Shown here in pieces: positions 40,658-58,086 of a stretch of 64,000 bases of DNA. The position numbers were made by a program, and so were the translations under genes. The DNA is from Acidovorax radicis (lineage in GTDB: Bacteria; Pseudomonadota; Gammaproteobacteria; Burkholderiales; Burkholderiaceae_C). The notes beneath the pieces were generated by a model, which worked only from the letters and a program-made list of their open reading frames with translations, did no database searches and was not told where the DNA came from. Location of the stretch: assembly GCF_020510705.1 (NCBI RefSeq), contig NZ_CP075184.1, forward strand, positions 2,046,001-2,110,000, written 5' to 3'. The stretch's first letter is position 1, and the number at the start of each line of letters is the position of its first letter.

Positions 40658-41038
40658 TCATCTCAGAGCGGAACCCGCCCGAACGGGGCGGGTTTTTCGT
40701 AGGTGGACATCCGGCTTGGCGGCGCTGGCGCGCGGGGCTTGCTTGCGTTCGTCGATCCAGGCCTCCACCTCGGCTAGGTCCCACACCACGCAGCGCGGCG
40801 TCAGATTGAAGCGCCGTGGAAACTCGCCGCGGCGCTCCATTTCGTAGATCGTCGTTTCGGCCAGGGGAACGATTTGGCGTAACTCATGCCGACGAATGGT
40901 GCGCCGAAATGGCAGAACGCCGCGCTTCGGGAACTGCGGAAGATTGCTGTAAACGTTTGAGCCAGGCAAGGGGGCGGCCTGCGGGCGGCTTTCGGTACCT
41001 TGGCTGTAGCTAATTTCTCCCGGCAAGTTGTTCCCCAT
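40658..41038 (-). CDS. AlpA/MerR-like DNA-binding protein (excisionase-type)
   Basis: 126 residues, ATG at 41038. The middle carries an AlpA-type winged HTH (LRQIVPLAETTIYEMERRGEFPRRFNLTPRCVVWDLAEVEAWI, named by family; key part TTIYEMERRGEFP). AlpA proteins activate integrase or excision genes in cryptic prophages and islands. Upstream is an N-terminal ~55-residue tail without match. The 3' end overlaps a hairpin shared with the convergent antitoxin gene. Confidence 0.85.
   Translation of the reverse strand: MGNNLPGEISYSQGTESRPQAAPLPGSNVYSNLPQFPKRGVLPFRRTIRRHELRQIVPLAETTIYEMERRGEFPRRFNLTPRCVVWDLAEVEAWIDERKQAPRASAAKPDVHLRKTRPVRAGSALR
40672..40697. terminator. Bidirectional terminator between antitoxin and AlpA genes
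   Basis: ACCCGCCC (40673-40680) and GGGCGGGT (40686-40693) with a short loop, followed by TTTTT on the + strand. It ends the toxin-antitoxin unit and lies inside the last codons of the minus-strand AlpA gene. Confidence 0.7.
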
Positions 41039-41764: not shown

Positions 41765-42499
41765 TCAGAACGGGCGAGTGCTGCCATACGCCAGGTCGCG
41801 CAGTGGCGATGCGTTTAGCAGTGTCCAGCTTCTCCTATGTCCGCGTAGCCAGCTCTGGGACTGCCAGTCAGCTAGCAACCGACTCAGGGTTTCTGCGCGG
41901 ATACCCAAATAGGCGGCTAGCTGGCGCTGACTCAGGGGCAGAGTGATCTCCCCCTGCTGCGTGCTCGGAAGCCGCAGCAGATAGGCCGCCAGACGCTCTG
42001 GAGCGTTGCTGGTGGTAAGCCACTGCACTTCATTGACGTAGCGATACAGCCGTTTGCTGAAATCTTCCAGCAGCCTTATCGCTAGTTCGGAGTGGCGCTC
42101 ACATGTCCGGCGCATTGCGTCACGCCCAAGCTGCCAAACAGCTGTAGCACCTCTGGTTCGCGCGGTCATGGGATAGCGGCCGTGCTCCATGAACATCGCC
42201 GCTTCGGCCACGCTTTGGCCTGCGAGGAAGCAATGAAACACCAACTCCTGGCCTTCGAGTCCATAGCGCACAACCTCCACGCAGCCGTGCTCTATCAACA
42301 ACCAGTGTTGTGCGGGCGCTCCTTCGCGAAACAGGGTTTCGCCGCTGCGATGTTCTCGCTGCTGGGCGCCCTGTACCAATGACTCCAGCACTTGAGGAGC
42401 CAGCCCCGCAAGCCTTGGCAGTGTACTGAGCAGAGTGATGAGTTTTTCTGGCGTGGCAGCGTTGTTGATAAAAGTCATTGGTTGAAATTGCATGTGCAT
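41765..42499 (-). CDS. Crp/Fnr-family transcriptional regulator
   Basis: 244 residues. An N-terminal cyclic-nucleotide-binding-like beta roll (LFREGAPAQHWLLIEHGCVEVVR, LAGQSVAEAAMF) is followed by a C-terminal winged HTH (LPLSQRQLAAYLGIRAETLSRLLADW). It lacks the Fnr cysteine cluster, so it is not an oxygen-sensing iron-sulfur Fnr; the effector is unknown. It is divergent from a TonB receptor gene, with an inverted repeat between them, and probably regulates the metal-uptake cluster to its right. Confidence 0.9.
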   Translation of the reverse strand: MHMQFQPMTFINNAATPEKLITLLSTLPRLAGLAPQVLESLVQGAQQREHRSGETLFREGAPAQHWLLIEHGCVEVVRYGLEGQELVFHCFLAGQSVAEAAMFMEHGRYPMTARTRGATAVWQLGRDAMRRTCERHSELAIRLLEDFSKRLYRYVNEVQWLTTSNAPERLAAYLLRLPSTQQGEITLPLSQRQLAAYLGIRAETLSRLLADWQSQSWLRGHRRSWTLLNASPLRDLAYGSTRPF

Positions 42500-42506
42500 A
42501 GATCAT

Positions 42507-42531
42507 ATTGAGAATACGAATACATCTCAAT
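42507..42531. promoter_or_regulatory. Inverted repeat in the Crp/Fnr - TonB receptor divergent region
   Basis: ATTGAGA (42507-42513), 11 bases, TCTCAAT (42525-42531), in the 42-base gap between divergent starts. Could be the regulator's own operator or a Fur-type site (GAGAATACGAAT). Not assigned. Confidence 0.5.
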
Positions 42532-42541
42532 AACTTTTCAT

Positions 42542-44683
42542 ATGCGCATTTGTTTCTCTCTACCTTCGACAAAAAAGGGATCTGGTTGCTTGGTAGTGGT
42601 GGCAGTCATGGCCCAGATTGCAATCGCCCAGGATGGTCAGCCCCAGAAACCAGAGCTGCCAGCGGTCACCGTTCGCTCCAGCCGCGACAGTGCTACTGCG
42701 CCGATGTATGACGGAGTGGAGGCCGAGCGGGCGCGCCTTGCGCGCGTGCCGGGCGGCACCAATTTGATTGAGCCTCAGCAGCAGAGTCGGCTGGCCACCT
42801 TGCGCGATGCGCTGGACTATCAGCCCGGAATTGTGATCCAGGACTTTTTTGGGGGCACGGACCAGCCACGCTTGAGCATTCGAGGCTCGGGTATTCAGAG
42901 CAACCCGGTCAACCGAGGTGTATTACTGCTCCAAGATGGCCTGCCTTTGAATGAGGCCGATGGCTCTTTCATCATCGGTTTGCTGGAGCCGCGCAACGCT
43001 GCACTGATCAGTGCGCGCCGAGGAGCGAATGCGCTCACCCCAGGGGCAACCACGTTAGGTGGTGAACTGGATTTTGTGTCGCTGACGGGTGCTCAGGAAC
43101 GCGGCCGCGTGCGTGCAGAGACAGGGAGCTATGGCCGCCAGGCTTTGCAGGCATCAGTGGGCGGGGTGGGAGAGCGGTTTGACAGCCGCATCTCTGCCAG
43201 CAGCGATCGTTTCGATGGCTACCGTCACCACTCTGCGTCGAGCCGGGACAGTGTGCAGGCGAATCTGGGTTTCCAGGGAGATGGCAGCTTTGAAAACCGC
43301 ACTTACCTGAGTTGGGCCGACCTGTCGTTTCAGGTTCCGAGCGTGGTGCCCAAAGACCGCATTGCGTCCAACCCGCGCGGCGTGATGGGGGATGGCGCCA
43401 CGGCGCAAGACCAGTTGCTCAACGTGTACAAGCGCGACCCGCGCCGTGCGGCTGACCAAATGCGCTTGGCCAACCGCTCGCGCTGGGGCTCAGACACCTT
43501 GCGCCAGGAGGTGGGGGTGTACTGGCAAGACACCGATGATTTGTTCAACAACCAAACCAACTACACCGTGACCCACAGCCGCACGGCGGGCGCGCAGTGG
43601 CAGGCCAGCGGGCGGCCAGCGGGTGAACAGGGGGCGTGGGGTTGGCGCACTGGCGTGTCGTGGGCGCACAGTGAAATGCAGCGCGATCTGTACGCCACCA
43701 GCCCTGTCAATGGCCAGCGGTTGCAGCGCTTTGGCTCCTACGATCTGGACGCCAGCAATTTGCAGGCGCTGGCCGCGCTGGATTGGCGCGTGGTACCTGA
43801 CTGGACGGTGGTGGGCAGCGTGCAATGGAGCCACCTGACCCGTGATGCCGCCAGCCGCACCAGCGCTGTGCGGGCCGATCAAGACTGGGCATTTGCCACC
43901 CCCAAGGTGGGCGTGAACTGGGCGGCCACCCCCACCACCCGCCTGTGGGCCAACCTGAGCCGCAGCCACGAGGCGCCCACCTTCTGGGAAATCGTCAGCG
44001 CCACCGTGGCACCCAACAGCCCGGCCACGGCCCAGGCCGAACTGGTGCGCCTGAAGATGCAGCGCGCCACCACCTTCGAACTCGGCGGTGCCGGTCGCTG
44101 GGGCGAGGGCGCCCATGCGCTGAACTGGACGGCCGCCGTGTACCGCAGCGTCCTGGCCGACGAGCTGATCTCCACCACCGACGCCAACGGTATCAAGGTG
44201 GGCACGTACAACTATGCCGGCGGCACGCGCCACCAGGGTGTGGAGCTGGGCCTCTCGGGCAGCCAGCGCATGGGTGTGGGTGCGCTCGACTACCGCGCCA
44301 GCTGGACGTACAGCGACTTCCGCTTCCGGGGCGGCGAATACGCGGGCAAACAGATTGCCGGTGTGCCACGCCAGCTCATCAATGCCGAGGTGCTCTACCG
44401 CATCGGCGCCTGGCGCTTCGGCCCCAACGTGCGCTGGATGCCTGTCAGCACGCCCACCGACCACGCCAACACCGCAGGTGCCGAGCAGGACGCTTACGCA
44501 CTGCTGGGCCTCAAGCTCGAATGGCGCGATGGACCCTTGGCGCTGTATCTGCAGGCCGACAACGTGACCGACCGGCGCTATGCCAGCGCCTACGCCATCC
44601 GCAACCAGGCTACCGCAGCGCAGCCGGGCTACTTGCAAGGCCTGGGCCGCAGCTTCACGGCAGGCCTGAGCTACCAGTTCTGA
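42542..44683 (+). CDS. TonB-dependent outer-membrane receptor
   Basis: 713 residues. A signal peptide ends near AIAQ, then the plug domain (VTVRSSRD... RLATLRDALDYQPGIVIQDFFGG, LSIRGSGIQSNPVNRGVLLLQDG) and a 22-strand-type barrel ending in QF with the C-terminal aromatic. The plug is of the TonB type; a conventional TonB box is not obvious. It opens the metal/tetrapyrrole cluster. The FecA-like N-terminal signalling domain is absent, so it does not signal to an ECF factor. Substrate unknown. Confidence 0.93.
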   Translation: MRICFSLPSTKKGSGCLVVVAVMAQIAIAQDGQPQKPELPAVTVRSSRDSATAPMYDGVEAERARLARVPGGTNLIEPQQQSRLATLRDALDYQPGIVIQDFFGGTDQPRLSIRGSGIQSNPVNRGVLLLQDGLPLNEADGSFIIGLLEPRNAALISARRGANALTPGATTLGGELDFVSLTGAQERGRVRAETGSYGRQALQASVGGVGERFDSRISASSDRFDGYRHHSASSRDSVQANLGFQGDGSFENRTYLSWADLSFQVPSVVPKDRIASNPRGVMGDGATAQDQLLNVYKRDPRRAADQMRLANRSRWGSDTLRQEVGVYWQDTDDLFNNQTNYTVTHSRTAGAQWQASGRPAGEQGAWGWRTGVSWAHSEMQRDLYATSPVNGQRLQRFGSYDLDASNLQALAALDWRVVPDWTVVGSVQWSHLTRDAASRTSAVRADQDWAFATPKVGVNWAATPTTRLWANLSRSHEAPTFWEIVSATVAPNSPATAQAELVRLKMQRATTFELGGAGRWGEGAHALNWTAAVYRSVLADELISTTDANGIKVGTYNYAGGTRHQGVELGLSGSQRMGVGALDYRASWTYSDFRFRGGEYAGKQIAGVPRQLINAEVLYRIGAWRFGPNVRWMPVSTPTDHANTAGAEQDAYALLGLKLEWRDGPLALYLQADNVTDRRYASAYAIRNQATAAQPGYLQGLGRSFTAGLSYQF

Positions 44684-44692
44684 GGGTACGCC

Positions 44693-45709
44693 ATGCTGCC
44701 ATCCCTGCCTGTGCCGACCCTCTCACGCCGCCAGGTGCTGGCGGCGCTGGCCGCCTCCGGCCTGCCCGCTGTGGCGTGTTCTGCCCCGCGCCTGCCGCGC
44801 ATCACCCTGTCGGGCCCTCCGGCGATTGTGTCGGCTCCCTTGATCCACATGGCCGAGACCCATGCGTTGGCGGGTGTGGCGGGCGAAACCGCTTTTGTGT
44901 CGTGGCGCGACCCCGACCAACTGCGCATGATGGCCATGGGCGGCAAGGCCGACGTGCTGGCCATGCCCAGCAACGTGGCCGCCAACCTGTTCAACCGGGG
45001 CGCGGGCGTCACGCTGCTCAACATCTCGACCTGGGGAGCGCTGTGGCTCGTCACGCGCGATGCCCATCGCAAGGCGCTGGCCGACTACCGGGGCGAGGAA
45101 ATCGCCGTGCCCTTCCGGGGCGACATGCCCGACATCGTGCTGCAACTGCTGGCCGCCAAGCAGGGGCTCGATCTGCAAAAAGACTTCCGCATCCGCTACG
45201 TGCCCACGCCCATGGAGGCCATGCAGTTGCTCATCACGCGCCGTGTCTCGCATGCGCTGCTGGCCGAGCCCGCCGTATCGCTGGCGCTGCGTAAAACCAA
45301 GTCCTTCCCCATCGGTCTGATTGCGCCTGACCTGCACCGGGGCGCCGACCTGCAGCAGGAGTGGGGCCGCCTTTTTGAGCGCAAGCCCCGCTTGCCGCAG
45401 GCGGGTATCGCTGCCGTGGGCACGGTGCGCCAGCAGCCCGAGGTTTTGGCTGCCGTGGCAAACGCCTATGCGCAGTCGCTCGCCTGGTGCCGCGCGCACC
45501 CCCTGGAGTGCGGCGCCATGATGGCCAAACACATCGACCTGCTCATCCCCGAGGCCGTGGCCGACGCCATTGCCGTGAGCCAGCTCGACACCGTGCCTGC
45601 CGCCGCCGCGCGGCCCGAGCTGGAGTTCTTCTTTGGCCAGCTCATGGCGCGCAACCCGGCGCTGGTGGGCGGCAAGCTGCCTGCCAGCGCGTTCTACGGC
45701 ATGCCGTAG
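44693..45709 (+). CDS. NitT/TauT-type periplasmic substrate-binding protein
   Basis: 338 residues. The N-terminus SRRQVLAALAASGLPAVAC has both a twin-arginine-like pair and a possible lipobox Cys. The two-lobed binding protein follows (ISTWGALWLVTRD, VPTPMEAMQLLITRRVSHALLAEPAVSLALRK), as in the nitrate/sulfonate/bicarbonate ABC family. It starts 9 bases after the TonB receptor, and the matching permease and ATPase lie at 52985-54648, beyond the second receptor and the CobN-like gene. Its ligand could be the imported metal or metal chelate. Confidence 0.85.
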   Translation: MLPSLPVPTLSRRQVLAALAASGLPAVACSAPRLPRITLSGPPAIVSAPLIHMAETHALAGVAGETAFVSWRDPDQLRMMAMGGKADVLAMPSNVAANLFNRGAGVTLLNISTWGALWLVTRDAHRKALADYRGEEIAVPFRGDMPDIVLQLLAAKQGLDLQKDFRIRYVPTPMEAMQLLITRRVSHALLAEPAVSLALRKTKSFPIGLIAPDLHRGADLQQEWGRLFERKPRLPQAGIAAVGTVRQQPEVLAAVANAYAQSLAWCRAHPLECGAMMAKHIDLLIPEAVADAIAVSQLDTVPAAAARPELEFFFGQLMARNPALVGGKLPASAFYGMP

Positions 45710-45710
45710 C

Positions 45711-45732
45711 TGCTTCGGGGCGCAGCCCCGCA
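45711..45732 (+). terminator. Weak hairpin after the binding-protein gene
   Basis: CGGGGC (45716-45721), loop GCA, GCCCCG (45725-45730), followed by a mixed CATTCCTTTT. Only a modest T tract; possibly a partial terminator within the operon. Confidence 0.35.
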
Positions 45733-45817
45733 TTCCTTTTCGTTGTTTTCCATTGTTTGTCCCCGGCAGCCGCCGCCACCTGGGTCTTTGCTTTTTTGAT
45801 TCCAGGAGTTTGCATTC

Positions 45818-47827
45818 ATGACGTATTCCCCCGAGGCCCCCGGCGCGCCCAGCGCAGCCCCGAACAATTCCCGCCCCTTGCGCCCCCGTCCCGTGGCCTG
45901 GGCCGCCATGCTGTTGCTTGCCGGAACGAGCGCCCAGGCCCAGGACAACACCCCGCCCCTGCAGGTGGCACAGGCCGCCACGGCCCTGCCTGCGGTCACC
46001 GTCACGGCCACGCTGACCGAGCAGGACGCCCGCACCGCGCCCGCCAGCGTCACCGTCATCAACCGCGAGGAGCTGGCGGCGCGCAATGCGTCCGATCTGC
46101 TCGACGCCGTGCGCGGCGCCCCTGGCCTCACACTCTCGCCGCGCCAGGTGGGCGGGCGCAAGACGCTGGCGTTGCGGGGGCTGGAAGGCAAGCACACGCT
46201 CACTCTCATCGACGGGCGGCGCATCAGCGCCACGGACGATGTGGTGGGCCATTCCGACTACCAATACGGCTGGCTGCCCATGTCGGCGGTCGAGCGCATC
46301 GAGATCATCCGGGGGCCCATGTCGGCGCTGTATGGCTCCGAGGCGCTGGGCGGTGTCATCAACCTCATTACCCGCCAGCCCAAGGACCGCTGGATCGGCT
46401 CGGTGGGCGTCTCGGCCAGCGCCCCTACCCGCTTCAGCGAAGGCGAACCCACGGGCACCACCTCGGTGTTTGCTGCCGGCCCGGTGGGCGAACGCCTGAG
46501 CCTGCGCGTGAACGCCGAGCTGGCGCACAGCGCACCCGTGGCCGATCGGCAGAGCCCGCTGCTGTCGGAAATCGAAGGCAGCCACGCCAAGAACGGTGGC
46601 CTGGCTGCCCGCTATGCGCTGACGCCCGAGCAAACCCTGGAGGCGGGGTGGAGTGGCGGCAAAGAGCAGCGCGTGTACGACACCAGCTCCACCTCCAAGG
46701 GTGTGTACCGCAGCACCTACGACATCGACCGCTCTCAGGCCCATGTTGGCTGGGAGGGCCAGTTTGACAACTGGCGCGGCAAGCTGCGCGCCTACCGCAG
46801 CGAGATCGACATTGCCAACCGCGCCAGCAACGGCGCTACGCCCACGCGGCCGCAGAACATGGTGGACGACGTGCTGGACGGCCATGCCAGCTTTGCCCTG
46901 GGCGCGCACAAGGTCACCGTGGGCGGCGAATGGCGCCGCGAGACGCTGGAGAACGCCGGCCTGAAAAACGGCGTAGACGATGCGGCGCACAAGGCCCTGT
47001 TTGCGCAAGATGAAATCGCCCTGACCGACACGCTCATGCTCACCGCCGGTCTGCGTGCCGACCACCACGCACTGTTTGGCAGCGAAGTCAGTCCGCGCGC
47101 CTATCTGGTGTGGGAGCCCACCCCGGCGCTGGTGGTCAAGGGCGGTTTTGGCCACGCCTTCAAGGCGCCCACGCTCAAGCAGATCTCGCCCAACTACGTG
47201 GGGGCCGAAGGGCCGCACACCTTTGCGGGCAACGGCAACATCAAGCCCGAGTCGTCCAACTCGTTTGAAGTGGGTGCCGACTGGCAGGTGGCGCCCGCCT
47301 GGTCGCTGCGCGCCACGGTGTTCAACACCGAGGTCAAAGACCTCATCACCTACCGCCTGCTGCGCCAGGAGGGCGTGCGGCGCTTCTACCAGTACGACAA
47401 CGTGGACGCCGCACGCATCCAGGGGCTGGAGGCGGGCATGACCTGGGACATGACGCGCCAGCTTGCCTGGAGCAACGACCTGACGCTGCTGCACACGCGC
47501 GACAAGAGCACCGGCAAGAAGCTGGCCGACCGGCCATCGAGCAGCCTGACCTCGCGCCTGGAATGGAAAGGCGCCGAGGGCTGGAGCGCACGCCTGACCG
47601 GCGAATTCACCGGCAGCCAGACCGGCACCGACGGCGCGGCGCTGCCCGCGTATGCGCTGTGGAGCGCCAGCGTAGGCAAGCAGTTTGCACTGGACGCCCG
47701 CCGCAAGCTGGTGCTGCGCGCGGGGCTGGAAAACATTGGCAACGTGAACCTGGCCGAGAAGTCGGAGAGCTTTGGCTATGCCGAGCGCGCCCGCCGTGTG
47801 TTCGTGACCGCAAGGGTTGATTTCTGA
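45818..47827 (+). CDS. TonB-dependent outer-membrane receptor (BtuB/haem-type plug)
   Basis: 669 residues; ATG at 45818 behind CCAGGAG. The signal region ends near AQAQ. The plug has VTVTATLTEQDARTAPASVTVI, LALRGLEGKHTLTLIDGRRIS and GPMSALYGSEALGGVINLITR, the form of the BtuB/CirA/haem-receptor group. The barrel closes with a terminal F. Its position directly before the CobN-like gene suggests that it carries the substrate of that enzyme, as HmuR does for HmuS in Bacteroidetes. Confidence 0.93.
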   Translation: MTYSPEAPGAPSAAPNNSRPLRPRPVAWAAMLLLAGTSAQAQDNTPPLQVAQAATALPAVTVTATLTEQDARTAPASVTVINREELAARNASDLLDAVRGAPGLTLSPRQVGGRKTLALRGLEGKHTLTLIDGRRISATDDVVGHSDYQYGWLPMSAVERIEIIRGPMSALYGSEALGGVINLITRQPKDRWIGSVGVSASAPTRFSEGEPTGTTSVFAAGPVGERLSLRVNAELAHSAPVADRQSPLLSEIEGSHAKNGGLAARYALTPEQTLEAGWSGGKEQRVYDTSSTSKGVYRSTYDIDRSQAHVGWEGQFDNWRGKLRAYRSEIDIANRASNGATPTRPQNMVDDVLDGHASFALGAHKVTVGGEWRRETLENAGLKNGVDDAAHKALFAQDEIALTDTLMLTAGLRADHHALFGSEVSPRAYLVWEPTPALVVKGGFGHAFKAPTLKQISPNYVGAEGPHTFAGNGNIKPESSNSFEVGADWQVAPAWSLRATVFNTEVKDLITYRLLRQEGVRRFYQYDNVDAARIQGLEAGMTWDMTRQLAWSNDLTLLHTRDKSTGKKLADRPSSSLTSRLEWKGAEGWSARLTGEFTGSQTGTDGAALPAYALWSASVGKQFALDARRKLVLRAGLENIGNVNLAEKSESFGYAERARRVFVTARVDF

Positions 47828-47848
47828 CAACAAGGACTCTTTGAACCT

Positions 47849-47888
47849 CCCCTGGCCCTCTCTCTGGTGGGGAAGTGTGGGCCAGGGG
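47849..47888 (+). promoter_or_regulatory. Perfect 10-bp inverted repeat between receptor and CobN-like genes
   Basis: CCCCTGGCCC (47849-47858) and GGGCCAGGGG (47879-47888) with a 20-base loop, 22 bases after the receptor stop. No T tract follows. It may stabilise the receptor mRNA 3' end or modulate read-through. Confidence 0.5.
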
Positions 47889-47913
47889 CCGGTTGTATCA
47901 ATATTCAAATACT

Positions 47914-47970
47914 ACTATTTTGATAGCTGTTGCCGCTTTATAGATAAGCGATAGAGGCCAATTTGACTCA
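47914..47970 (+). repeat. Interspersed repeat, copy 5, at the CobN-like start
   Basis: TTTTGATAGCTGTTGCCGCTT, then AAGCGATAGAGGCCAATTTGA. It ends across the start of the next gene; the only start codon at the upstream end of that frame (TTG 47963) lies within it. Confidence 0.75.
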
Positions 47971-50900
47971 TAAAACTATTGCAAACACCATCGCCTGCTT
48001 GCGGCGCTGGCTGGCCCTGTGCCTGCTGGTGCTGGCGCCCTTTGGCGCTGCGCAGGCGGCGCAGGTGTTGTTCATCGCCACGTCCAATGTGCCTACAGGC
48101 AAGTTCCGCCAGTTGGCCGACATCGCCCGGCCGCACGGCATTGAGCTGCAGGTGCGCTACCTGGAAAGGCTGCCCGCCGAGACCGACGAAGGCCTGTTCA
48201 AGGGCTTTGACGCGGTGTTCATCGACAGCTATTTGCAGGATGTGGTGCAAGACCGGTTGGCGCATGCGCTGCCCGGCCTGCGTGCGCCCCACGCCTGGCT
48301 GTACGACGCCAAACCCGCCTGGGGCGGCGGCTTGCCCGAGCCCGTGGCGCGGCGGCTCATCACCTATTACAGCAACGGCGGCAAGCAGAACTTCGAGGGC
48401 TTCTTCGCCACACTGGCCGCGCAGCTGCAGGGCCGCGCGGCCCCGGGCGTGCCCGACCCCGTGGTGTTCCCCAAAACCGCTGTGTACCACCCGCGTGCGC
48501 CGGGCCTGGTCATGGCAGACCCTGTGGCGTGGCTGCGTTCGCAAGGCGTTGATCCAGCTGCTACCAACCGCCGCCCCGTGGTGGCGCTGGCGCTGCACCA
48601 GCAGTACATCGCCGCCATGCAGACCGCTTTCATCGACGACCTGATTGCGCGCATCGAAGCCGGGGGCGCCGTGGCGCTGCCGTTCTACAGCCCCATGCTG
48701 GAGGCGGGCGCGCTGGAGCAAATGCTCAAGCCCGCGGGCATGCGGCTGGCCGACGTGCTCATCAACACCCAGATCATGCTGAACGCCGAGGAGCGACGTG
48801 CCGAGTTCGAGCGGCTGGGCATCCCCGTGCTGCAAGCCATGCCGTACCGGCGCGGCGACGAGGCCGCCTGGGCCGCCAACCCGCAGGGCGTGGCGCTGAT
48901 GGATGTGCCGTTCTACCTGGCGCAGGCCGAATACGCGGGCGTTACCGACATCCAGGTGGCGGCCGCCACACGCAAGGCCGATGAGCAGATCGTGCCCATT
49001 GCCGCGCAGGCCGACGCCGTGGTGGGCAAGGCGCTCAACCTGGCTAGCTTGCAGCGCAAGCAGAACGCCGACAAGCGCCTGTCCATTTTCTTCTGGAACT
49101 ACCCACCGGGCGAGAAGAACCTGTCTGCCTCGTTTTTGAACGTGCCGCGCAGCCTGCAAACCACGCTGGCCGCGCTGCAGGCAGCGGGCTACGACACCGA
49201 GTCGCCTGCCGAGCCCCTGTTGATCGGCAATCTGCAGCGCCTGCTGGCTCCGGCCTACCGCCAAGGCGAGTTGGAGCCCCTGCTGCGCGACGGCCTGGCC
49301 GCCACCCTGCCCGTGGCGCAGTACCGCCAGTGGCTGGCCACGCTGCCTGCGGCCACGCAAGAAGCCCTGCGCGAGCGCTGGGGCGCGCCCGAAGCGTCGA
49401 GCATGGTGCTGCGGCGCGGCGGCGAAGCCGTGTTCGTGGTGCCGCGCCTGATGCTGGGCAAGGTCGCCATCCTGCCGCAGCCGCCGCGCGGCGAGCAATG
49501 GGACGACAAGGAAAAGGCGCTGTACCACTCACCCAGCGCCCTGCCATCGCACTACTACCTGGCCGCCTACCTGTGGGCGCGCGAGCAGCACAAAAGCGAC
49601 GCATTGGTGCACTTTGGCACCCACGGCAGCCAGGAATGGCTGCCCGGCAAGGAGCGTGGCCTGTCGGTGTTCGACCCCGGCATGCTGGCGGTGGGCAACG
49701 TGCCGGTGGCCTACCCGTACATTGCCGACAACATCGGCGAGGCACAGCAAGCCAAGCGCCGGGGCCGCGCGGTCATCGTCAGCCACCAGACGCCGCCGTT
49801 CAAACCCGCAGGGCTGCACGCCGCACTCACCCACATGCACGACCTGCTGCACGCCTGGCTGGCGCAGGACGATGGTGTGGTCAGAGAAAAAATCAAGGCC
49901 GACCTGCTGGCCGCCGTGCAAAAAGAGCACATCGACCGCGACATGGGCTGGACGCCCGCGCGTGCGCGCAGCGAATTCCCGGCTTTTGTCGACCTGCTGC
50001 ACAACCACCTGCACGAGCTGGCCGAAACCGCCCAGCCGCTGGGCCTGCACACCCTGGGCCGTGCGCCCGAAGAGCAGCACCGCCTGGCCACCGTGCTGCT
50101 GATGCTGGGGCGCCCGTTCTGGGAGGCTGCGGCACTGCACGCCGGAGCACCGGCTGCCGATGTGGACGAGGCCCTGATTGGCGAGTACAGCCGCCTGGCG
50201 CAGACGGCGCCCTACCAGTTGCTGCAGCGCCATGTGATCGAGGGCCAGAGCCTTGAGGCCCTGCCAGCGGCGTTGCAAACCGGCATCGCCAAGGCCCGCA
50301 CCGCCTACGCCCACATTGGCGCCGACCAGGAGTTGCCTGCCTTGCTGCAGGTGCTGGCCGGGCGCCACCTGCCCACGTCGTTTGGCGGCGACCCCATCAA
50401 GAACCCCGACGCCTACCCCACAGGCCGCAACCTGTACGGTTTTGACCCCTCGCGCGTGCCCACGCCCCAGGCCTGGGCGGCCGGCAAGGACGCTGCCGAG
50501 CAACTCATTGCTGAGCACCAACGCCTGACCGGCAAGGCGCCAACGAAGCTGGCCGTGTCGCTGTGGTCGGTGGAGACCATGCGCCACCAGGGTTTGCTCG
50601 AAGCACAGGCGCTGTGGCTGCTGGGCGTGGAGCCGGTGTGGGACGACGGCGGGCGCGTGACGGGCGTGAAGCTGGTGCCGCGCAACGTGCTCGGGCGCGA
50701 GCGGGTGGACGTGGTGCTGTCGGCCACCGGCCTGTACCGCGACCATTTCCCCAACGCCATGAAGCAGCTGGCCCGTGCCGTGCAACTGGCTGCGCAGGCT
50801 GAGGGGCCGGGCGAAGAGGCCAACCCCGTGGCGGCGCACACGCGCAGCATGGCCGCCAAGCTGCGCGCCCAAGGCATGGGCGACCAGGCTGCGCTGGCGG

Positions 50901-52105
50901 CGGCGCAAACGCGCATCTTCTCGTCCGAATCGGGCAACTACGGCACGGGCCTGGACAACGCCACGCTGGCCACCGACAGCTGGCAGGGCAAGAAAGAGGG
51001 CGACCGCAAGCTCGCGCAGCTGTACCTGTCGCGCATGCAGTACGCCTATGGGCCGGACGAATCCACCTGGGGCAGCCTGCCGGGGGCGGCGCAGGAGGGA
51101 AAAAGCGGTATAGGCGGCAACGGCGGCAAGGCACTCAACCTGTATGCCGAGCACCTGCGCGGCACCGAGGGCGCGGTGCTCTCGCGCAGCTCCAATCTCT
51201 ATGGCATGTTGACCACCGACGACCCGTTCCAGTACCTGGGCGGCATTGCGCTGGCCGTGCGGCACCTGGACGGCAAGGCGCCGCAGCTCTACATCAGCAA
51301 CCTGCGCGGGGCAGGAAGTGGCAAGGTCGAAGGCGCGGCGCAGTTCCTGGGCAAGGAGCTGGCCACGCGCCAGTTCCACCCCGGCTACATCCAGGGCCTG
51401 ATGGCCGAGGGCTACGCCGGCACGCTGCAGGTGCTGGACGCCACCAACAACTTCTGGGGTTGGACGGCGGTGGCGCGCGAGATCGTGCGCGACGACCAGT
51501 GGCAGGAGATGGCTGATGTGTACGTGCGCGACAAGCACCAGCTGGGCCTCAAGCGCTGGTTCGAGGCGCACAACCCGCATGCGCTGGCGCAGACCATGGA
51601 GCGCATGCTCGAAGCCGCCCGCCAGGGCTACTGGAAGGCCGACCCGAAAACCGTGGCCGAGCTGAAAGCGCGCTGGCGCGACCTGGCGGAGCGCTTTGAT
51701 GTGCGCACCGATAACGCACGCTTTCAAGCGTATGTAGGCAAAGCGCCTGCGACTAACAACCAAGTGGCGCCCGCTGCACCGGGTTTTGGCCTCGATGCCC
51801 CGTTGACGCAGACTGCCGCCGCCCAGGCCGCTGCGCCAGCGCCGCTGCCACCCTCCGCCGAGCCACCGCAACCCACCACACCGCCGCAATCCGCCGAGCC
51901 CGCCGCTGCAGAGCCCCCGGTGGTCAGCGGCCTCTTGATGGCGCCCGTGCCGCAAGCCCAGCCGGTCAGCGTGGGCCCCACGCAGGCCGCGCTGCTGGCG
52001 CTGCTGCTGGCGGGCATCACCGGCGCCGGTGCCGTGCGGCAGGCGCGCCGCCGCAGCGTGGTGCGCCCCCACCGAATCCCTTCACTTTCTGGAGTTTTCA
52101 AATGA
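47963..52105 (+). CDS. Exported, membrane-anchored CobN/HmuS-like chelatase large subunit
   Basis: 1380 residues. Homologous to CobN/ChlH-type subunits of cobalto- and magnesium-chelatases, with the core motif FGTHGSQEWLPGKERGLS (about 548-566) and an NIGEAQQAKRRGRAVIVSHQ-type block. Unlike cytoplasmic CobN it has a signal peptide (LALCLLVLAPFGAAQAA) and a C-terminal Pro/Ala-rich spacer (about 1285-1325) leading to a membrane helix (about 1339-1357) and an Arg-rich tail, so the large domain should be periplasmic. No CobS/CobT ATPase partners are nearby. HmuS-type proteins of Bacteroidetes remove iron from haem; de- or re-metallation of an imported tetrapyrrole is the likely job here. Start ambiguous: TTG 47963 in a repeat, or TTG 47999. 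Confidence 0.85.
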   Translation: MTHKTIANTIACLRRWLALCLLVLAPFGAAQAAQVLFIATSNVPTGKFRQLADIARPHGIELQVRYLERLPAETDEGLFKGFDAVFIDSYLQDVVQDRLAHALPGLRAPHAWLYDAKPAWGGGLPEPVARRLITYYSNGGKQNFEGFFATLAAQLQGRAAPGVPDPVVFPKTAVYHPRAPGLVMADPVAWLRSQGVDPAATNRRPVVALALHQQYIAAMQTAFIDDLIARIEAGGAVALPFYSPMLEAGALEQMLKPAGMRLADVLINTQIMLNAEERRAEFERLGIPVLQAMPYRRGDEAAWAANPQGVALMDVPFYLAQAEYAGVTDIQVAAATRKADEQIVPIAAQADAVVGKALNLASLQRKQNADKRLSIFFWNYPPGEKNLSASFLNVPRSLQTTLAALQAAGYDTESPAEPLLIGNLQRLLAPAYRQGELEPLLRDGLAATLPVAQYRQWLATLPAATQEALRERWGAPEASSMVLRRGGEAVFVVPRLMLGKVAILPQPPRGEQWDDKEKALYHSPSALPSHYYLAAYLWAREQHKSDALVHFGTHGSQEWLPGKERGLSVFDPGMLAVGNVPVAYPYIADNIGEAQQAKRRGRAVIVSHQTPPFKPAGLHAALTHMHDLLHAWLAQDDGVVREKIKADLLAAVQKEHIDRDMGWTPARARSEFPAFVDLLHNHLHELAETAQPLGLHTLGRAPEEQHRLATVLLMLGRPFWEAAALHAGAPAADVDEALIGEYSRLAQTAPYQLLQRHVIEGQSLEALPAALQTGIAKARTAYAHIGADQELPALLQVLAGRHLPTSFGGDPIKNPDAYPTGRNLYGFDPSRVPTPQAWAAGKDAAEQLIAEHQRLTGKAPTKLAVSLWSVETMRHQGLLEAQALWLLGVEPVWDDGGRVTGVKLVPRNVLGRERVDVVLSATGLYRDHFPNAMKQLARAVQLAAQAEGPGEEANPVAAHTRSMAAKLRAQGMGDQAALAAAQTRIFSSESGNYGTGLDNATLATDSWQGKKEGDRKLAQLYLSRMQYAYGPDESTWGSLPGAAQEGKSGIGGNGGKALNLYAEHLRGTEGAVLSRSSNLYGMLTTDDPFQYLGGIALAVRHLDGKAPQLYISNLRGAGSGKVEGAAQFLGKELATRQFHPGYIQGLMAEGYAGTLQVLDATNNFWGWTAVAREIVRDDQWQEMADVYVRDKHQLGLKRWFEAHNPHALAQTMERMLEAARQGYWKADPKTVAELKARWRDLAERFDVRTDNARFQAYVGKAPATNNQVAPAAPGFGLDAPLTQTAAAQAAAPAPLPPSAEPPQPTTPPQSAEPAAAEPPVVSGLLMAPVPQAQPVSVGPTQAALLALLLAGITGAGAVRQARRRSVVRPHRIPSLSGVFK

Positions 52106-52638
52106 GCAATCCCATTGAATCGATGATGTATGGCGTCAGCCAGCTCTTCCTGTTCCCCGTGCTGCTGGCCATTGCCGCGCTGTTCGTGCATGCCTTCTAC
52201 GCGGCAGGCGCCTTTGCCTGGCAGGCCTGGCAGCGCCGCAGCGGCAAGGCCGCAGGTTTTGAAATGCTGGCCGCACGCCGCGCCAACCCCGCCATCAGCG
52301 TGCTCGACCTGGAAGTGCTGGCGGCCGAGCGGCTCGAGTTTGCCCGCATCGCCACCCGCGTGGCGCCCATGCTGGGCCTGGTGGCCACGATGATCCCCAT
52401 GGGCCCGGCGCTGATGGCACTGGCCGATGGCAATCTGGCCGATGTGTCGCGCAGCCTGATGGTGGCGTTCTCCGCCGTGATCCTGGCGCTGCTGGCCGCC
52501 GCCATCAGCTACAGCGTGGTCAACGTGCGCAAGCGCTGGTACGCCACCGACCTGGCTGCCATTGAGCAAGGCACAGCCCCGGCCGAGACCCCCGCGCAAG
52601 ACATGCTGGGCCACCTGGTGAGCGAGGTGCCCGCATGA
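52102..52638 (+). CDS. MotA/TolQ/ExbB-like proton-channel subunit
   Basis: 178 residues with three membrane segments (about 12-40, 88-110 and 118-140), the ExbB topology, and the TolQ/ExbB-like ARIATRVAPMLGLVATMIPMGPAL stretch in the second. Its ATG overlaps the CobN-like stop (ATGA). With the next gene it should form a proton-driven energiser, as ExbB with ExbD. In hmu operons the equivalent gene also follows the CobN-like gene. Whether it drives TonB or acts on the chelatase is not known. Confidence 0.85.
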   Translation: MSNPIESMMYGVSQLFLFPVLLAIAALFVHAFYAAGAFAWQAWQRRSGKAAGFEMLAARRANPAISVLDLEVLAAERLEFARIATRVAPMLGLVATMIPMGPALMALADGNLADVSRSLMVAFSAVILALLAAAISYSVVNVRKRWYATDLAAIEQGTAPAETPAQDMLGHLVSEVPA

Positions 52639-52985
52639 AGCTGCGCCTGATGGACGACATGGAGGCCGACGACCCCATCCAGTCGGTGGTGAACCTGATC
52701 GACGTGTTCCTGGTCATCATCGCTGCGCTGCTGCTGGCGGTGGCCAACAACCCGGTGAACCCGTTCAGCACAGAGTCGGTCACCGTCATCAAAAACCCTG
52801 GCAAGCCCAATATGGAGGTCGTGATCAAGGACGGCCAGAAGATCGAGCGCTACAAGGCCAGCGGCGAAATTGGCGAAGGCCAGGGCAACAAGGCGGGTGT
52901 GGCCTATCGCCTCAAAGATGGCTCCATGGTGTATGTGCCCGAAGCAGGTGCAGAGCAGTCTGCAGCGGCAGGGGTGGTGCAGTAA
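52635..52985 (+). CDS. DUF2149 protein, ExbD-like partner
   Basis: 116 residues. One membrane helix (about 18-40) with an Asp at its start (VNLIDVFLVIIAALLLAVANNPVNPF), as in ExbD/TolR, then a small periplasmic domain (MEVVIKDGQKIERYKASG, AYRLKDGSMVYVP). This is the DUF2149 form that accompanies CobN-like and ExbB-like genes. Start and stop overlap both neighbours by a few bases. Confidence 0.88.
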   Translation: MKLRLMDDMEADDPIQSVVNLIDVFLVIIAALLLAVANNPVNPFSTESVTVIKNPGKPNMEVVIKDGQKIERYKASGEIGEGQGNKAGVAYRLKDGSMVYVPEAGAEQSAAAGVVQ

Positions 52986-53779
52986 TGCTGCGGCTGCTGG
53001 CGCGCGTTTTGCGGGGGCTGCCCGGCTACTTGTGGAGCGGCTGGGGTGCGTGCGCCAGCCTGTTTTTGCTGCTGGCCGCCTGGGAGGCGGTGGCTGCTTT
53101 CTACGACCCGCTCATCCTGCCCGACCCGCTAGGCGCCTTTGCCGCGCTGTGGGGCCTGGTAGAGCAGGGCAGTGCCTGGCCCGCGCTGGCCGCCACCGCA
53201 CGGCGTGCACTCGTGGGGCTGGCGCTGGCCGTTTCAGTGGGCAGCCTGCTGGGGCTGGCCGCAGGCCTGTCGGTCACCGCGTCCGTCCTTTCGCGCCCCT
53301 TGGTAACCGTGTTGCTGGGCACACCGCCCATTGCCTGGCTGGTGCTGGCCATGCTGTGGTTCGGCATGAGCGACGGCACGCCCGTGTTCACCGTGTTTAT
53401 CGCCTGCGTCCCCGTGGTGTTTGCAAGTGCCCTGCAGGGCACGCGCACGCTGGATTTGCAGCTGCGCGACATGGCGCGCGCCTACCGCCTGCCGCGCTGG
53501 ATGGCGCTGCGCGAGGTGTATGGCCCGCATGCACTGTCGTACCTGTTCCCGGCCTGGGTGACGGCGCTGGGCAGTGCCTGGAAAGTGACCGTCATGGCCG
53601 AGCTGCTGGCCAGCACCGACGGCGTGGGCGCCGCGCTGGCGGCAAGCCGCTCGCAACTGGACACCGCCACCACCCTGGGCTGGATCACCGCCGTGGTGGG
53701 CTGCCTGCTGGTAGTGGAGTATGGATTTTTGGAACCGCTCAAGCGCGAAGTCGAGCGTTGGCGGGAGGCACCGCGATGA
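52985..53779 (+). CDS. ABC transporter permease (NitT/TauT type)
   Basis: 264 residues, six membrane segments, with the BPD_transp_1 signature for ATPase docking in the family position (EVYGPHALSYLFPAWVTALGSAWKVTVMAELL, key part ALGSAWK). Start TAATG overlaps the DUF2149 stop. It forms an importer with the ATPase that follows and the binding protein at 44693. Confidence 0.92.
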   Translation: MLRLLARVLRGLPGYLWSGWGACASLFLLLAAWEAVAAFYDPLILPDPLGAFAALWGLVEQGSAWPALAATARRALVGLALAVSVGSLLGLAAGLSVTASVLSRPLVTVLLGTPPIAWLVLAMLWFGMSDGTPVFTVFIACVPVVFASALQGTRTLDLQLRDMARAYRLPRWMALREVYGPHALSYLFPAWVTALGSAWKVTVMAELLASTDGVGAALAASRSQLDTATTLGWITAVVGCLLVVEYGFLEPLKREVERWREAPR

Positions 53780-54648
53780 GCCTTTTTTTGAACGATGTGC
53801 GCCACAGCTACGCGTTGACCGAAGTACTGGGCGGTGTGGGCCTGGCCCTGCCTGCGGGCGGCGTGCTGGCGCTGGTCGGCCCCTCGGGCTGCGGCAAGAC
53901 CACGCTGCTGCACCTGTGCGCGGGCCTGCTCGATGTGCAGGAGGGCCGGCTGGACAACTTTTTTGCGAACCCTGCGTTGATGTTCCAGCAGCCGCGCCTG
54001 CTGCCCTGGCAGACCACGGTGGACAACATCGCCCTGGGCCTGCGCGCACGGGGCATGGCCCGTGCTGAGGCCCGCGCCAGGGCGCACGCCATGGGCGCCG
54101 TGCTGGGGCTGGACGCCGAGGCGCTGGCCGTCTACCCGCACCAGCTTTCGGGCGGTATGCAAAGCCGCGCCGCGCTGGCGCGCGCCCTGGTGCTCGAACC
54201 CGATCTGCTGCTGATGGACGAACCCTTCGCCGCGCTGGACATCGGCCTCAAGGCGCAGCTGCACCGTCTGCTGCTGCGCCACCAGGCCGAGAAGGGCACA
54301 GCGGTGCTGATGATCACGCACGACCTTATGGAGGCCGTGCGCCTGGCCGACACCGTGCTCGTCATGGCCGCTAGGCCGGGCCGCATCTTGCACGGGCACA
54401 CGCCTGCCGCGCCCGCGCTGGCGCGCACCGACGCCATGGTCTACCGCGAGACCGCCGAGCTGCTGCGCGTGCCCGCCGTGCGTATGGCCTTTGGGTTGGA
54501 TGCGCTGCAGGAAGAGGGTGCATGCATCGCGATATCCAGCGTGACCAGCGCGGCCACCACAGTCCCTTCCTTGCCGGGCCAGCAGCGCTTGGCGGCTGCG
54601 CAGCAAGCGTCTGCCGCCAGTGCTTCCAGCAAAATCTCCTGCGGATGA
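53776..54648 (+). CDS. ABC transporter ATP-binding protein (NitT/TauT type)
   Basis: 290 residues from the ATG at 53776; the same frame is open from 52870, which is not coding. Walker A GPSGCGKTT (about 36-44), Q-loop MFQQPRLLPWQTT, signature LSGGM, Walker B LLLMDEPFAALD and H-loop ITHD are intact. It overlaps the permease stop and the NnrS start (ATGA each). The ~35 C-terminal residues (Ala/Ser-rich) are an extra tail. Confidence 0.93.
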   Translation: MSLFLNDVRHSYALTEVLGGVGLALPAGGVLALVGPSGCGKTTLLHLCAGLLDVQEGRLDNFFANPALMFQQPRLLPWQTTVDNIALGLRARGMARAEARARAHAMGAVLGLDAEALAVYPHQLSGGMQSRAALARALVLEPDLLLMDEPFAALDIGLKAQLHRLLLRHQAEKGTAVLMITHDLMEAVRLADTVLVMAARPGRILHGHTPAAPALARTDAMVYRETAELLRVPAVRMAFGLDALQEEGACIAISSVTSAATTVPSLPGQQRLAAAQQASAASASSKISCG

Positions 54649-55898
54649 ACCTCTCCACTGCCCCCCATCCGCCCACGGCTGCCACTGCCGCCTCTGCTGC
54701 ATGGCACCAGTCGGTACACCCGCTGTGGATGTGCGCCATGCGCCCGTTCTTTTTGCTCACCATGGGCTCTGCCGTGCTGCTCATCGCGCTGTGGAGCGCC
54801 GTGCTGGCGCTGGGCCTGCCGCCGCCCCCGGTGGCGGGCGGCGCGCTGGTGTGGCACGCTCACGAGCTGCTGCTGGGCTTTGGCCTGGCGGCGGTGGCGG
54901 GCTTTGTGCTCACCGCCGTGCCCGAGTTCACCAATACCGCGAGCGCCAGCCCGCGCACCGCGCGCCAGCTGGTGCTGCTGTGGCTGCTGGGGCGTGCGGG
55001 CTTCTGGCTCTCGGGCGTGGCGGGCAGCCTCGCGCTGGCGCTGGCTGCCTTGGCGCACCTGGGCCTGCTCGGCGGCCTGCTGGCGCTGCTGTGGCCCGCG
55101 CTGCGCACCGTGGCCGGGCAGCGCCACCGCGCCTTTGGCTGGGCGCTGGCGGGCCTGTTCGTGCTGGTGGCCGGCTTCTATGTGGACGCGCTGCGCGGGG
55201 CCTACCCCATGCGCTGGCTGCTGGCCCTGCTGGGCATGGTGATGGTGCTCATCATCGTGGCCATGAGCCGTATCTCCATGCGCATCGTCAACAACGCCAT
55301 TGACGCAGCAGGCGAGGGCAGAGAGCCCTACCTGGCCCGCCCGCCTCGGCGCAACCTCGCCATCCTCTGCATTGCATTGTTCACCGTGGCCGAGTTCCTT
55401 GAGCCCGGCGGCCGAACCAGCGGATGGCTGGCATGCTCCGCCGCCGCGGCGCTGTGCAATCTGATGGGCGACTGGCATGTCGGCCGCCCACTGCTGCGCC
55501 GCCTGCCGCTCATGCTCTACGTCGTATACGCCTGTATGGCGCTGGGCTACGCCCTCATCGGCTCAGCCCTACTCGCGGGCGGGCCAGGCGTGGACGCCGG
55601 GCGCCACCTGCTCAGCGTGGGCGCCATCGGGCTTTCGATATACACCGTGATCTGCATCGCCGGGCGTGCGCACTGCGGCTACCCGTCGGACGAACGGCCC
55701 TGGGTCGCACGCGGGGCGATGCTGATCCTTGCTGGGGCCGTGCTGCGCGCGAGTGCGGCATTTGTGCCTGACGCGGTGGTCGCTCTGCAGAGCCTGGCCG
55801 GGCTGTCCTGGGTGACGGCGTTCGGGTTGCTTTGCTGGCGCATCGCACCGGTGCTGTGGTGCGTGCGGCCGGATGGATTGTGGGGGTGCAGAGGGTAG
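54645..55898 (+). CDS. NnrS-family membrane protein
   Basis: 417 residues from the ATG at 54645. About twelve hydrophobic segments, with NnrS marks HPLWMCAMRPFFLLT, WHAHELLLGFG and several membrane His. NnrS proteins are haem- and copper-containing integral membrane proteins linked to nitric-oxide stress. Its fusion to this cluster by a stop-start overlap ties a haem-dependent protein to the tetrapyrrole pathway. Last gene of the run; no clear terminator seen. Confidence 0.9.
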   Translation: MNLSTAPHPPTAATAASAAWHQSVHPLWMCAMRPFFLLTMGSAVLLIALWSAVLALGLPPPPVAGGALVWHAHELLLGFGLAAVAGFVLTAVPEFTNTASASPRTARQLVLLWLLGRAGFWLSGVAGSLALALAALAHLGLLGGLLALLWPALRTVAGQRHRAFGWALAGLFVLVAGFYVDALRGAYPMRWLLALLGMVMVLIIVAMSRISMRIVNNAIDAAGEGREPYLARPPRRNLAILCIALFTVAEFLEPGGRTSGWLACSAAAALCNLMGDWHVGRPLLRRLPLMLYVVYACMALGYALIGSALLAGGPGVDAGRHLLSVGAIGLSIYTVICIAGRAHCGYPSDERPWVARGAMLILAGAVLRASAAFVPDAVVALQSLAGLSWVTAFGLLCWRIAPVLWCVRPDGLWGCRG

Positions 55899-56355: not shown

Positions 56356-58086
56356 TTACGTGGCTATTTCCGCAAGGAGTCCAGGCGCATGTGCGAGCGG
56401 CATGTTGACGGATGTGCCCCTGCGGTTCAGCGCATGCGTGTGAAAGGGCTGTAATCTGTCGCGGTGGGCCACGCTGATCAGTGTTACGCCGGGCAGACGC
56501 GCCAGCACCAGACCATAGAGCGTCGCTTCGTTGCTGGCATCCAGCGAGGCGGTGGCTTCGTCAAGGAACAGGTGGGTCGGTTTTTGCAGCAGTATGCGGA
56601 CGAAGGCGATACGCTGCTGTTCTCCGGGCGACAGGCGTGTTGACCAGCTGTCGCTTTCGTCCAGGTGTTCGGTGAGATGTTCCAGCCGCACGGCGCGCAG
56701 CAGTTCGACGCACTCGTCGGTCCCGGCATCCGATCCATTGCCCGGATAACACAGGCAGGCGCGCAGCGTGCCGTTGGGCAGGTAGCTTTGCTGCGGCACA
56801 AACATGGCTTTGGCCGATACAGGCCATTCGATGCTGCCGCTGCCATGGGGCCAGAGTCCCGCCAGCGCCCGAAGCAGTGTGCTTTTTCCTGCGCCCGAAG
56901 GGCCGCGGATCAGCCAGCGCTCGCCCGGATGCAAGGCAAGGTCCAGGGGCTCATCGAGCGCGCTGCCGTCGGGCAGCGCCAGGCGCAGGCCATGCGTGCG
57001 CAGCACCGCGCTGTTGCCCTCAACCGTTTTGATGTCGCTGACTTGCGGCGTGGCAAGGGCGGCGTCAAATTCATTCAAGCGCATATACACCGAGCGCAGC
57101 AGGGCAAGGTCCTTGTACATCATGATGAACCACGACAGTCCACCGCGCACCCGACTGAAAGCCAGCGTGACTTGTTGCACCGTGCCCAGCGTGATCTCCC
57201 TGGCGAAGTAGCGCGGAACGATAATCAGGTAAGGAACAAAAGCGCCCACCTCGATATACGCTTCCTTGAAAAAGGTCACGCGCTTGGTGTAGCGCATGAC
57301 ATCTCGCCAATTGTGGCGGATGGCCGCAAAGGCCGCACCCAGCTGCCCACGCTCGGTTTCGCCCCCGCCATAAAAGGCAATTTGCTCCGCGTTTTCGCGC
57401 AGGCGAACCATGAGAAAACGAAAATGCGCCTCGCGCCGCCGCTGTTGGTAATCGACCGCCGCCATCGGCTTGCCGATTTTTTCCAGAAACAGCGAGCCCG
57501 CCAGCGCGTACAGGATGGCCGCCCAGAGCATGTAACCCGGAATGCTGATGTTGATGCCGCCCACCGCAAAAGCCAAACTGCCCGAAATCGCCCAGACAAC
57601 CGTCCCGTAAGACACCAGCCTGACCACGTTGTCGAGCAAGCCGAGCGACAGCCGCAGCGTTTCCGTGGCCATCATGCGCAAGTCTTCGGCAATGCGCTGG
57701 TCGGGGTTGTCCACGAGCTTTTCGCGGTTGATACGGTAGTATGCGTTGGCGTGAAGCCAGCGCCCCACATACACATCGGTCAGCCAACTGCGCCAGCGCA
57801 TTTCAAGCTTCTGGTTGAACCAAGGGCGCGTGGTATCCAGAAAAATACTTGATACCGCAATCACCAGGAATACCCATATCTGGCGCCAGAAGGCGGCAGC
57901 ATCAAAATCCGCCAACGCATCAAAAAAATCGCGCTGCCAGTACGTCATGCGCACCGCGGTGTAGGCCCGCGTCAAGTCAATCGCAATGATCAGCGCCAGC
58001 AGGCCGCGCGCGGCCCAGCGCTCTTCCGATATCCAGTAGGGTTTTGCCAGCCGCCATGCTGCCGAAAACTGTTCTTTAATGGCCAT
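56356..58086 (-). CDS. SbmA/BacA-type ABC transporter with fused ATPase
   Basis: 576 residues from the ATG at 58086 (AGGCGG upstream; a GTG two codons earlier also fits). The N-terminal SbmA/BacA-like membrane domain has WFNQKLEMRWRSWLTDVYVGRWLHANAYYRI and IDNPDQRI-type residues (here VDNPDQRI). The nucleotide-binding domain has Walker A GPSGAGKST, signature LSPGEQQR and Walker B LFLDEATASLD. Relatives move vitamin B12, peptides or siderophores; position after a siderophore receptor suggests uptake or recycling of its ligand. Confidence 0.88.
   Translation of the reverse strand: MAIKEQFSAAWRLAKPYWISEERWAARGLLALIIAIDLTRAYTAVRMTYWQRDFFDALADFDAAAFWRQIWVFLVIAVSSIFLDTTRPWFNQKLEMRWRSWLTDVYVGRWLHANAYYRINREKLVDNPDQRIAEDLRMMATETLRLSLGLLDNVVRLVSYGTVVWAISGSLAFAVGGINISIPGYMLWAAILYALAGSLFLEKIGKPMAAVDYQQRRREAHFRFLMVRLRENAEQIAFYGGGETERGQLGAAFAAIRHNWRDVMRYTKRVTFFKEAYIEVGAFVPYLIIVPRYFAREITLGTVQQVTLAFSRVRGGLSWFIMMYKDLALLRSVYMRLNEFDAALATPQVSDIKTVEGNSAVLRTHGLRLALPDGSALDEPLDLALHPGERWLIRGPSGAGKSTLLRALAGLWPHGSGSIEWPVSAKAMFVPQQSYLPNGTLRACLCYPGNGSDAGTDECVELLRAVRLEHLTEHLDESDSWSTRLSPGEQQRIAFVRILLQKPTHLFLDEATASLDASNEATLYGLVLARLPGVTLISVAHRDRLQPFHTHALNRRGTSVNMPLAHAPGLLAEIAT

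Follow-up and report, generated by a model that had tools for sequence, protein, structure and literature searches.

Why would a bacterium place two TonB-dependent receptors, a CobN-like chelatase, an ATP-binding cassette (ABC) importer and NnrS in one run of genes? The question is raised by a locus of Acidovorax radicis, lying in a stretch of 64,000 nucleotides of contig NZ_CP075184.1 (positions 2,046,001 to 2,110,000), hereafter the window. On balance we favor the view that this operon is an iron-acquisition system for conditions of iron shortage without oxygen, that is, during denitrification and in the presence of nitric oxide (NO), and that the iron is probably haem-iron. The role in providing iron under anoxia is well supported at the level of promoter and genomic context. 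An original prediction, made from the sequence alone, had overlooked that the promoter combines FNR/DNR and Fur elements, that the divergent regulator resembles DNR and that the system is linked to denitrification.

The gene run of the window is a real operon. As originally predicted, two TonB receptors, a binding protein, CobN-like, ExbB-like and DUF2149 proteins, a permease, an ATPase and NnrS are all encoded on the + strand (assigned by Pfam, which for the binding protein gives sub-threshold matches alone, to VitK2_biosynth and NMT1_2), and stop-start overlaps of the form ATGA or TAATG at 52102, 52635, 52985, 53776 and 54645 link CobN through NnrS. The second receptor gene is bordered by gaps of 108 and 135 bases, and co-transcription across both gaps is putative. 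Some of the predicted boundaries were revised: NnrS most likely starts at the ATGA overlap with the ATPase gene rather than at 54522, the ATPase gene occupies 53776-54648, and with 41765 as its proposed start the system would include the Crp/Fnr gene that is transcribed divergently. The longest reading frame of the CobN-like gene opens at 47963, and an in-frame TTG at 47999, which opens the signal peptide MRRWLALCLLVLAPFGAAQA, is a possible start.

The run of genes is as described, but in the survey of neighboring genes in relatives, which had been suggested as a check, the supposed combination resolves into two modules fused in one operon. Module 1 consists of a TonB receptor, the binding protein, the NitT/TauT-like permease, the ATPase and NnrS; module 2 consists of a TonB receptor, the exported CobN-like protein, and the ExbB-like and DUF2149 proteins. 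Four binding-protein sequences were used to scan the species genomes of GTDB. Of the 443 relatives obtained, the 80 best were retained, so that distant relatives are unsampled by this set, and neighboring genes were sought by tblastn around each binding-protein locus within 10-kb flanks and a distance limit. The permease was found in 74 of the best 80 loci, the ATPase in 73 and NnrS in 69. The 11 loci missing at least one of the three are always interrupted by the limit of the contig, fetched stretch or distance: seven lie at contig ends (L015, L017, L018, L034, L057, L077 and L087), and L022, L024, L026 and L027 are incomplete because an inserted CobN block fills the 10-kb flank and pushes the genes out of range (in L024 the permease is visible at 20400, beyond the counting limit).

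Parts of the CobN block occur in 20 of the 80 loci and in three positions: after the binding protein (11 loci, six of which have the permease counted beyond the block), upstream of the module (six) and downstream of NnrS (three). The remaining 60 have no such part in the fetched flanks, some of which are short; L015 was scored among these though its contig, before breaking off, still shows receptor 2 after the binding protein. A CobN block within module 1 is found only in the group to which the window belongs (Simplicispira, Acidovorax, Comamonas, Diaphorobacter, Giesbergeria and kin), and elsewhere it stands upstream, downstream or alone. Diaphorobacter nitroreducens, the source of L035, is among the carriers of the fused operon. 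The 11 insertions, all in this group, may represent a single event, with the nine others being further arrangements; five group members (L016, L017, L021, L029 and L030), with binding proteins 76-88% identical to that of the window, lack the insertion. The ABC and NnrS genes are additions to an hmu-like core, as had been proposed. The proposal that the CobN-like protein frees a metal or product for import by the ABC transporter is unsupported; the receptor, binding protein, permease, ATPase and NnrS form a module of their own. In annotated plasmid records, module 1 adjoins one or more of Crp/Fnr, Rrf2, NnrU, nap, nor, hemerythrin and DUF1971 genes. On a Cereibacter plasmid (L013 1618-3584), genes for anaerobic haem degradation, ChuW/HutW and HutX, adjoin the binding protein-ABC-NnrS module. 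In Stutzerimonas kunmingensis (L076 11005-13422) the permease match is split by ~1.6 kb, perhaps by an insertion.

The promoter was scanned in intervals of 450 bases upstream of the receptor preceding the binding protein; 75 of the 80 loci had a receptor frame and 74 of these gave an interval of sufficient length, and 1,480 random intervals from the same loci served as background. An FNR box of at least 9/10 is present in 38 of the 74 intervals (0.55 expected) and an element of at least 14/18, which we take to be a Fur box by its match to the Fur consensus, in 44 (0.65 expected). The two together, with Fur relaxed to at least 13/18, are found in 35/74 (0.05 expected), and in 33/74 the Fur box starts 10-14 bases past the FNR start (again 0.05 expected). 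A matrix was built from 46 sites of L036-L094, with the 21 loci nearest the window excluded and some Comamonadaceae (e.g. Rhodoferax) remaining. Over both strands of the 64-kb window its best site, at 42512 (17.3 bits), lies between the divergent regulator and receptor 1, and the next independent site reaches 12.1 bits; 17 relatives from the group (L003, L016-L030 and L035) score 21.3-26.5 bits in the equivalent interval. Judged by these sites, both Fur and an FNR/DNR-type regulator would act on the promoter.

Table 1. Coordinates of the features of the locus, numbered from the first nucleotide of the window.
Feature	Position	Strand	Remarks
Divergent Crp/Fnr-family regulator	41765..42499	-	Closest solved relative P. 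aeruginosa DNR (3dkw, E 7.8e-22)
FNR/DNR-like palindrome TTGATAAAAGTCAT	42465..42478	+	8/10 consensus positions; overlaps start of divergent regulator gene
Fur-like operator ATTGAGA-N11-TCTCAAT	42507..42531	undirected	Matrix site 42512-42531
TonB-dependent receptor 1	42542..44683	+	Pfam; weakly PqqU/YncD-like
Substrate-binding protein	44693..45709	+	Twin-arginine signal by eye; PqqT/NrtA/SsuA fold class
TonB-dependent receptor 2	45818..47827	+	Pfam; CirA-like
CobN-like protein	47963..52105	+	CobN/Mg-chelatase 994 bits (Pfam); predicted export and C-terminal transmembrane anchor; likely start 47999
ExbB-like proton channel protein	52102..52638	+	MotA/TolQ/ExbB (Pfam); three hydrophobic segments
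DUF2149	52635..52985	+	Pfam; one hydrophobic segment; putative ExbD-like layout
NitT/TauT-like ABC permease (BPD)	52985..53779	+	Pfam
ABC ATPase	53776..54648	+	Pfam
NnrS	54645..55898	+	~12 hydrophobic segments; Pfam scan used longer start

A link to denitrification is seen among 150 genomes of the family, in which the binding protein (E <=1e-40) occurs in 13, NosZ (PF18764) in 30 and NirS (PF02239 below 1e-100, our own threshold) in 43. NosZ is found in 10 of the 13 binding-protein genomes and in 20 of the 137 others, and NirS in 10/13 and 33/137, respectively (Fisher p=4.8e-6 and p=2.3e-4, values that ignore kinship); two of the 13 have neither, and the host genome has both. This association with NosZ would also suit a supply of copper for N2O reductase, and NnrS has been described as a haem-copper protein (PMC1274295). 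We consider a copper role very unlikely, since the Fur boxes suggest iron and TIGR01778 (TonB-copper) was matched by one of ten receptors (E <=1e-40), at 143 bits versus 472.

The small partner genes of hmu operons presumably include ExbB-like and DUF2149 members, and the original prediction had called the locus an hmu-like tetrapyrrole system. The hmuYRSTUV operon of Bacteroides thetaiotaomicron, as reported, shares with the window a TonB receptor, an exported CobN-like protein with HFGTHG and small membrane partner genes (PMC12583661), whereas in the window no gene of the run is left over for HmuY, and the run is fused with the ABC importer and NnrS and carries the FNR/DNR plus Fur promoter. 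HmuS, which is reported to bind haem through His-254 (neck) and Met-79 (head) and to convert haem to protoporphyrin IX in an NADH-dependent manner (PMC12583661), is the top PDB match and best solved relative of the CobN-like protein (9d26). The superfamily-wide motif HFG(T/A)HG, which contains the catalytic His, is present as HFGTHG, and hydropathy indicates the transmembrane (TM) segments at both ends that mark HmuS; the segment at the N terminus is possibly a signal that is cleaved off. Because the protein has a signal-like N-terminal helix and a C-terminal TM helix, a cytoplasmic location, on which the original prediction was to fall, is not predicted; export and membrane anchoring are.

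Three other markers of HmuS are lacking, which also sets the protein apart from the hmu system. LSLDHxxEFMGG with His-1209 is absent, the window protein having LTTDDPFQYLGG, with Asp replacing His. HGR, the motif of His-254, does not occur between residues 151 and 330 of the trimmed frame, and the HGR of HmuS is unmatched in the alignment of the two proteins. The Met-rich insertion of ~120 residues has no equivalent, with 67 residues between the aligned blocks compared to 228 in HmuS. The aligned stretch does not reach the head domain that holds Met-79. On the three failing markers membership of HmuS was rejected; an HmuS-like mode of action is possible. What stands of the hmu comparison is the tetrapyrrole and iron theme, as supported by the receptors and Fur boxes of related blocks (below).

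The name CobN, as given by NCBI, implies cobalamin salvage or cobalt chelation, and the window protein does pass the NF004644 CobN model (1370 bits, cut-off 1248). The same model is passed by the CobN of the host's B12 locus (1467 bits), and since it names both groups CobN, inferring a B12 function from the name is unsafe. This second host locus, L115, has the same CobN-ExbB-DUF2149 core and differs from the window in 40.7% CobN identity, a cobalamin riboswitch, cob genes (CobT, BluB, CobB and a CobU-like gene), the order ExbB-DUF2149-CobN and a BtuC/FhuB-type permease. Five loci of this kind (L115 and L117-L120) show ATP, ExbB, DUF2149 and CobN matches in that order, and the two run against Rfam, L115 and L118, both contain the riboswitch. 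In a CobN tree of 33 rows, the window falls in a clade of 16 (support 99/98), and the B12 proteins form another (100/100). Rfam gives no match in the window, and no CobS/CobT-type AAA subunit was found among the ten window proteins scanned. A cobalamin role is thus highly improbable. DUF2149 itself is present in 25 of the 47 genomes of the genus, and by score a window-like copy only in the host and in G042, where the context (L116) confirms it.

The motif GMLTTDDPFQYLGG is common to 18 of the 33 tree rows, including five blocks with haem-family receptors; L142 and L140 carry it yet fall just outside the 16-row clade. Ten CobN blocks have this motif and a receptor in view (L042, L063, L073, L082, L136, L138, L141, L142, L143 and L145). 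A Fur box of at least 15/20 lies close to the receptor start in seven of them, in L141 it lies ~1.07 kb upstream, and L136 and L145 have none; L073 and L082 have a perfect FNR box 12 bases ahead of the Fur box. Among those loci of the B12 clade that were scanned, a Fur box is lacking in L115, L118 and L147. Six Fur-type or motif-sharing blocks, L082, L136, L138 and L143 being left out, were tested for receptor family: five pass the cut-off of TIGR01786 (haemoglobin/transferrin/lactoferrin), namely L063, L073, L042, L141 and L142, and the first four of these also pass TIGR01785 (haem). The remaining block, L145, has a CirA-like receptor, and so does the window. L073 comes from Pseudoduganella violacea. 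Haem as the substrate in the window is an inference from these relatives, because its own module 2 receptor is CirA-like. In an Azospirillum plasmid (L004 11614-16345), CobN-ExbB-DUF2149 lies near an iron-type ABC transporter, a siderophore receptor and nikR, and its CobN has LSTDHPFEYLGG, with His as in HmuS; the DH..E version of the motif also occurs in L139, L137 and L144.

The regulators of CobN-ExbB-DUF2149 blocks vary, with nikR adjacent in Azospirillum, a cobalamin riboswitch in the second host locus and Fur/FNR-type sites here. A further block belongs to the PA1921-PA1925 run of P. aeruginosa, in which we take PA1925 to be a DUF2149 protein. That run is reported to comprise a methyltransferase, a TonB receptor, a CobN-like protein, an ExbD homologue and a hypothetical protein (PMC4542158), so that its core gene content resembles the window's, and it is under Zur control (PMC4542158, PMC8531726). 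By analogy the window operon would acquire zinc, and a fold neighbor of its binding protein, 3un6, has zinc bound. The reported run has the methyltransferase gene adjacent and no ABC or NnrS gene. No site resembling the Zur consensus was found in the window at up to two mismatches or in 18 relatives (one strand of the near-palindrome scanned), and Fur and FNR boxes are present instead; we regard zinc as only slightly less improbable than cobalamin or copper.

An alternative with a better, though still small, chance of being correct is that receptor 1, as a PqqU-like protein, and the PqqT-like binding protein serve to import a redox cofactor or aromatic carboxylate, such as pyrroloquinoline quinone (PQQ), with the CobN block a separate iron unit sharing the promoter. 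PqqT, a PQQ-binding protein, and the TonB receptor PqqU (PMC12124388) share with the window the binding-protein fold and a distant receptor similarity. Receptor 1, however, scores 88 bits with the PqqU model NF041535 against a cut-off of 1200, and the Z score of the PqqT fold match is within ~1 of that of nitrate-binding NrtA. The window also differs from PqqT/PqqU in its iron/anoxia promoter and NnrS. Outside the window's group, the TonB-hemin family is the best, at sub-cut-off scores, for nine of the 11 module 1 receptors tested, and module 1 promoters contain Fur boxes.

In the iron-acquisition reading that we prefer, Fur would repress the promoter and an FNR/DNR-type activator would switch it on. 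Through the TonB receptors, molecules bearing iron would reach the periplasm; in relatives these are most likely haem. There the membrane-anchored CobN-like protein may strip the metal. ExbB/DUF2149 would be its dedicated proton-driven partner, and the operon encodes no AAA chelatase partner. Unlike haem oxygenase, such periplasmic demetallation would run without O2. In parallel, an organic ligand related to iron could enter by way of the binding protein and the NitT-like ABC transporter, while NnrS, which in V. cholerae is reported to keep the iron pool from dinitrosyl complexes (PMC9246220), might shield the incoming iron from nitrosylation. The haem substrate, the demetallation, the proton-driven coupling, the ABC ligand and the role of NnrS are all inferred.

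Several observations weigh against this reading. The window Fur site is degenerate, its 17.3 bits lying under every training site (lowest 18.3), and is missed by the classical 7-1-7 pattern with up to three mismatches; the FNR-like site matches 8/10 positions and overlaps coding sequence. Among the promoter intervals, 36/74 have no FNR box of 9/10 and 30/74 no Fur box of 14/18; where the pair is incomplete, either an element is absent or the start of the gene was misjudged. The receptors of the window are not haem-type, receptor 1 being PqqU-like far under the cut-off and receptor 2 CirA-like, and the CobN-like protein is without both the second active-site His of HmuS and its haem ligand HGR. 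The ligands of the binding protein's fold neighbors are small organic anions or oxyanions, with zinc bound in 3un6, and the co-occurrence tests disregard kinship. A clostridial plasmid has module 1 without NnrS and with hcp adjacent, and adjacent NnrS is missing in three further plasmid records; the unit is therefore not invariant in distant relatives.

Horizontal gain of the operon is likely. GC content climbs from 0.59 for the regulator gene to 0.65 for receptor 1 and 0.67-0.71 in later genes, except for DUF2149 at 0.60, with flanks of ~0.60. A phage-type integrase (38520-39776, just past guaA) and an AlpA-like regulator (40658-41038) precede receptor 1 by ~2.8 kb and ~1.5 kb, respectively, and with the rise in GC to ~0.69 suggest a possible genomic island; no second copy of the guaA end was found elsewhere in the window. 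Downstream, 56356-60388 (-) encodes an SbmA/BacA-like ABC protein and a siderophore receptor (TIGR01783, 382 bits, cut-off 223.5), and a Fur-like pattern with two mismatches lies at 60942. Short elements with the core ATAGCTG, which we take to be a repeat common in comamonads, occur at 47895-47962, 15882 and 29886, the first abutting the longest-frame start of the CobN-like gene.

We tentatively propose, with less confidence than the iron-acquisition role itself, that denitrifying proteobacteria possess an undescribed iron-import module gated by both Fur and FNR/DNR, in which a NitT-type ABC transporter takes up an iron chelate or tetrapyrrole-derived ligand and a dedicated NnrS keeps NO off the iron, and which recruits anaerobic haem-opening units, here distinct His/Asp rather than His/His CobN-like dechelatases. 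The locus bears on how denitrifiers obtain iron or haem iron without O2 and amid NO. NnrS, whose function is unsettled, gains a testable partner from a conserved module that joins it to a transporter under an iron-plus-anoxia promoter, and a second group of CobN-like proteins, linked to receptors of the haem family, provides a test of whether anaerobic haem demetallation exists outside the Bacteroidota.

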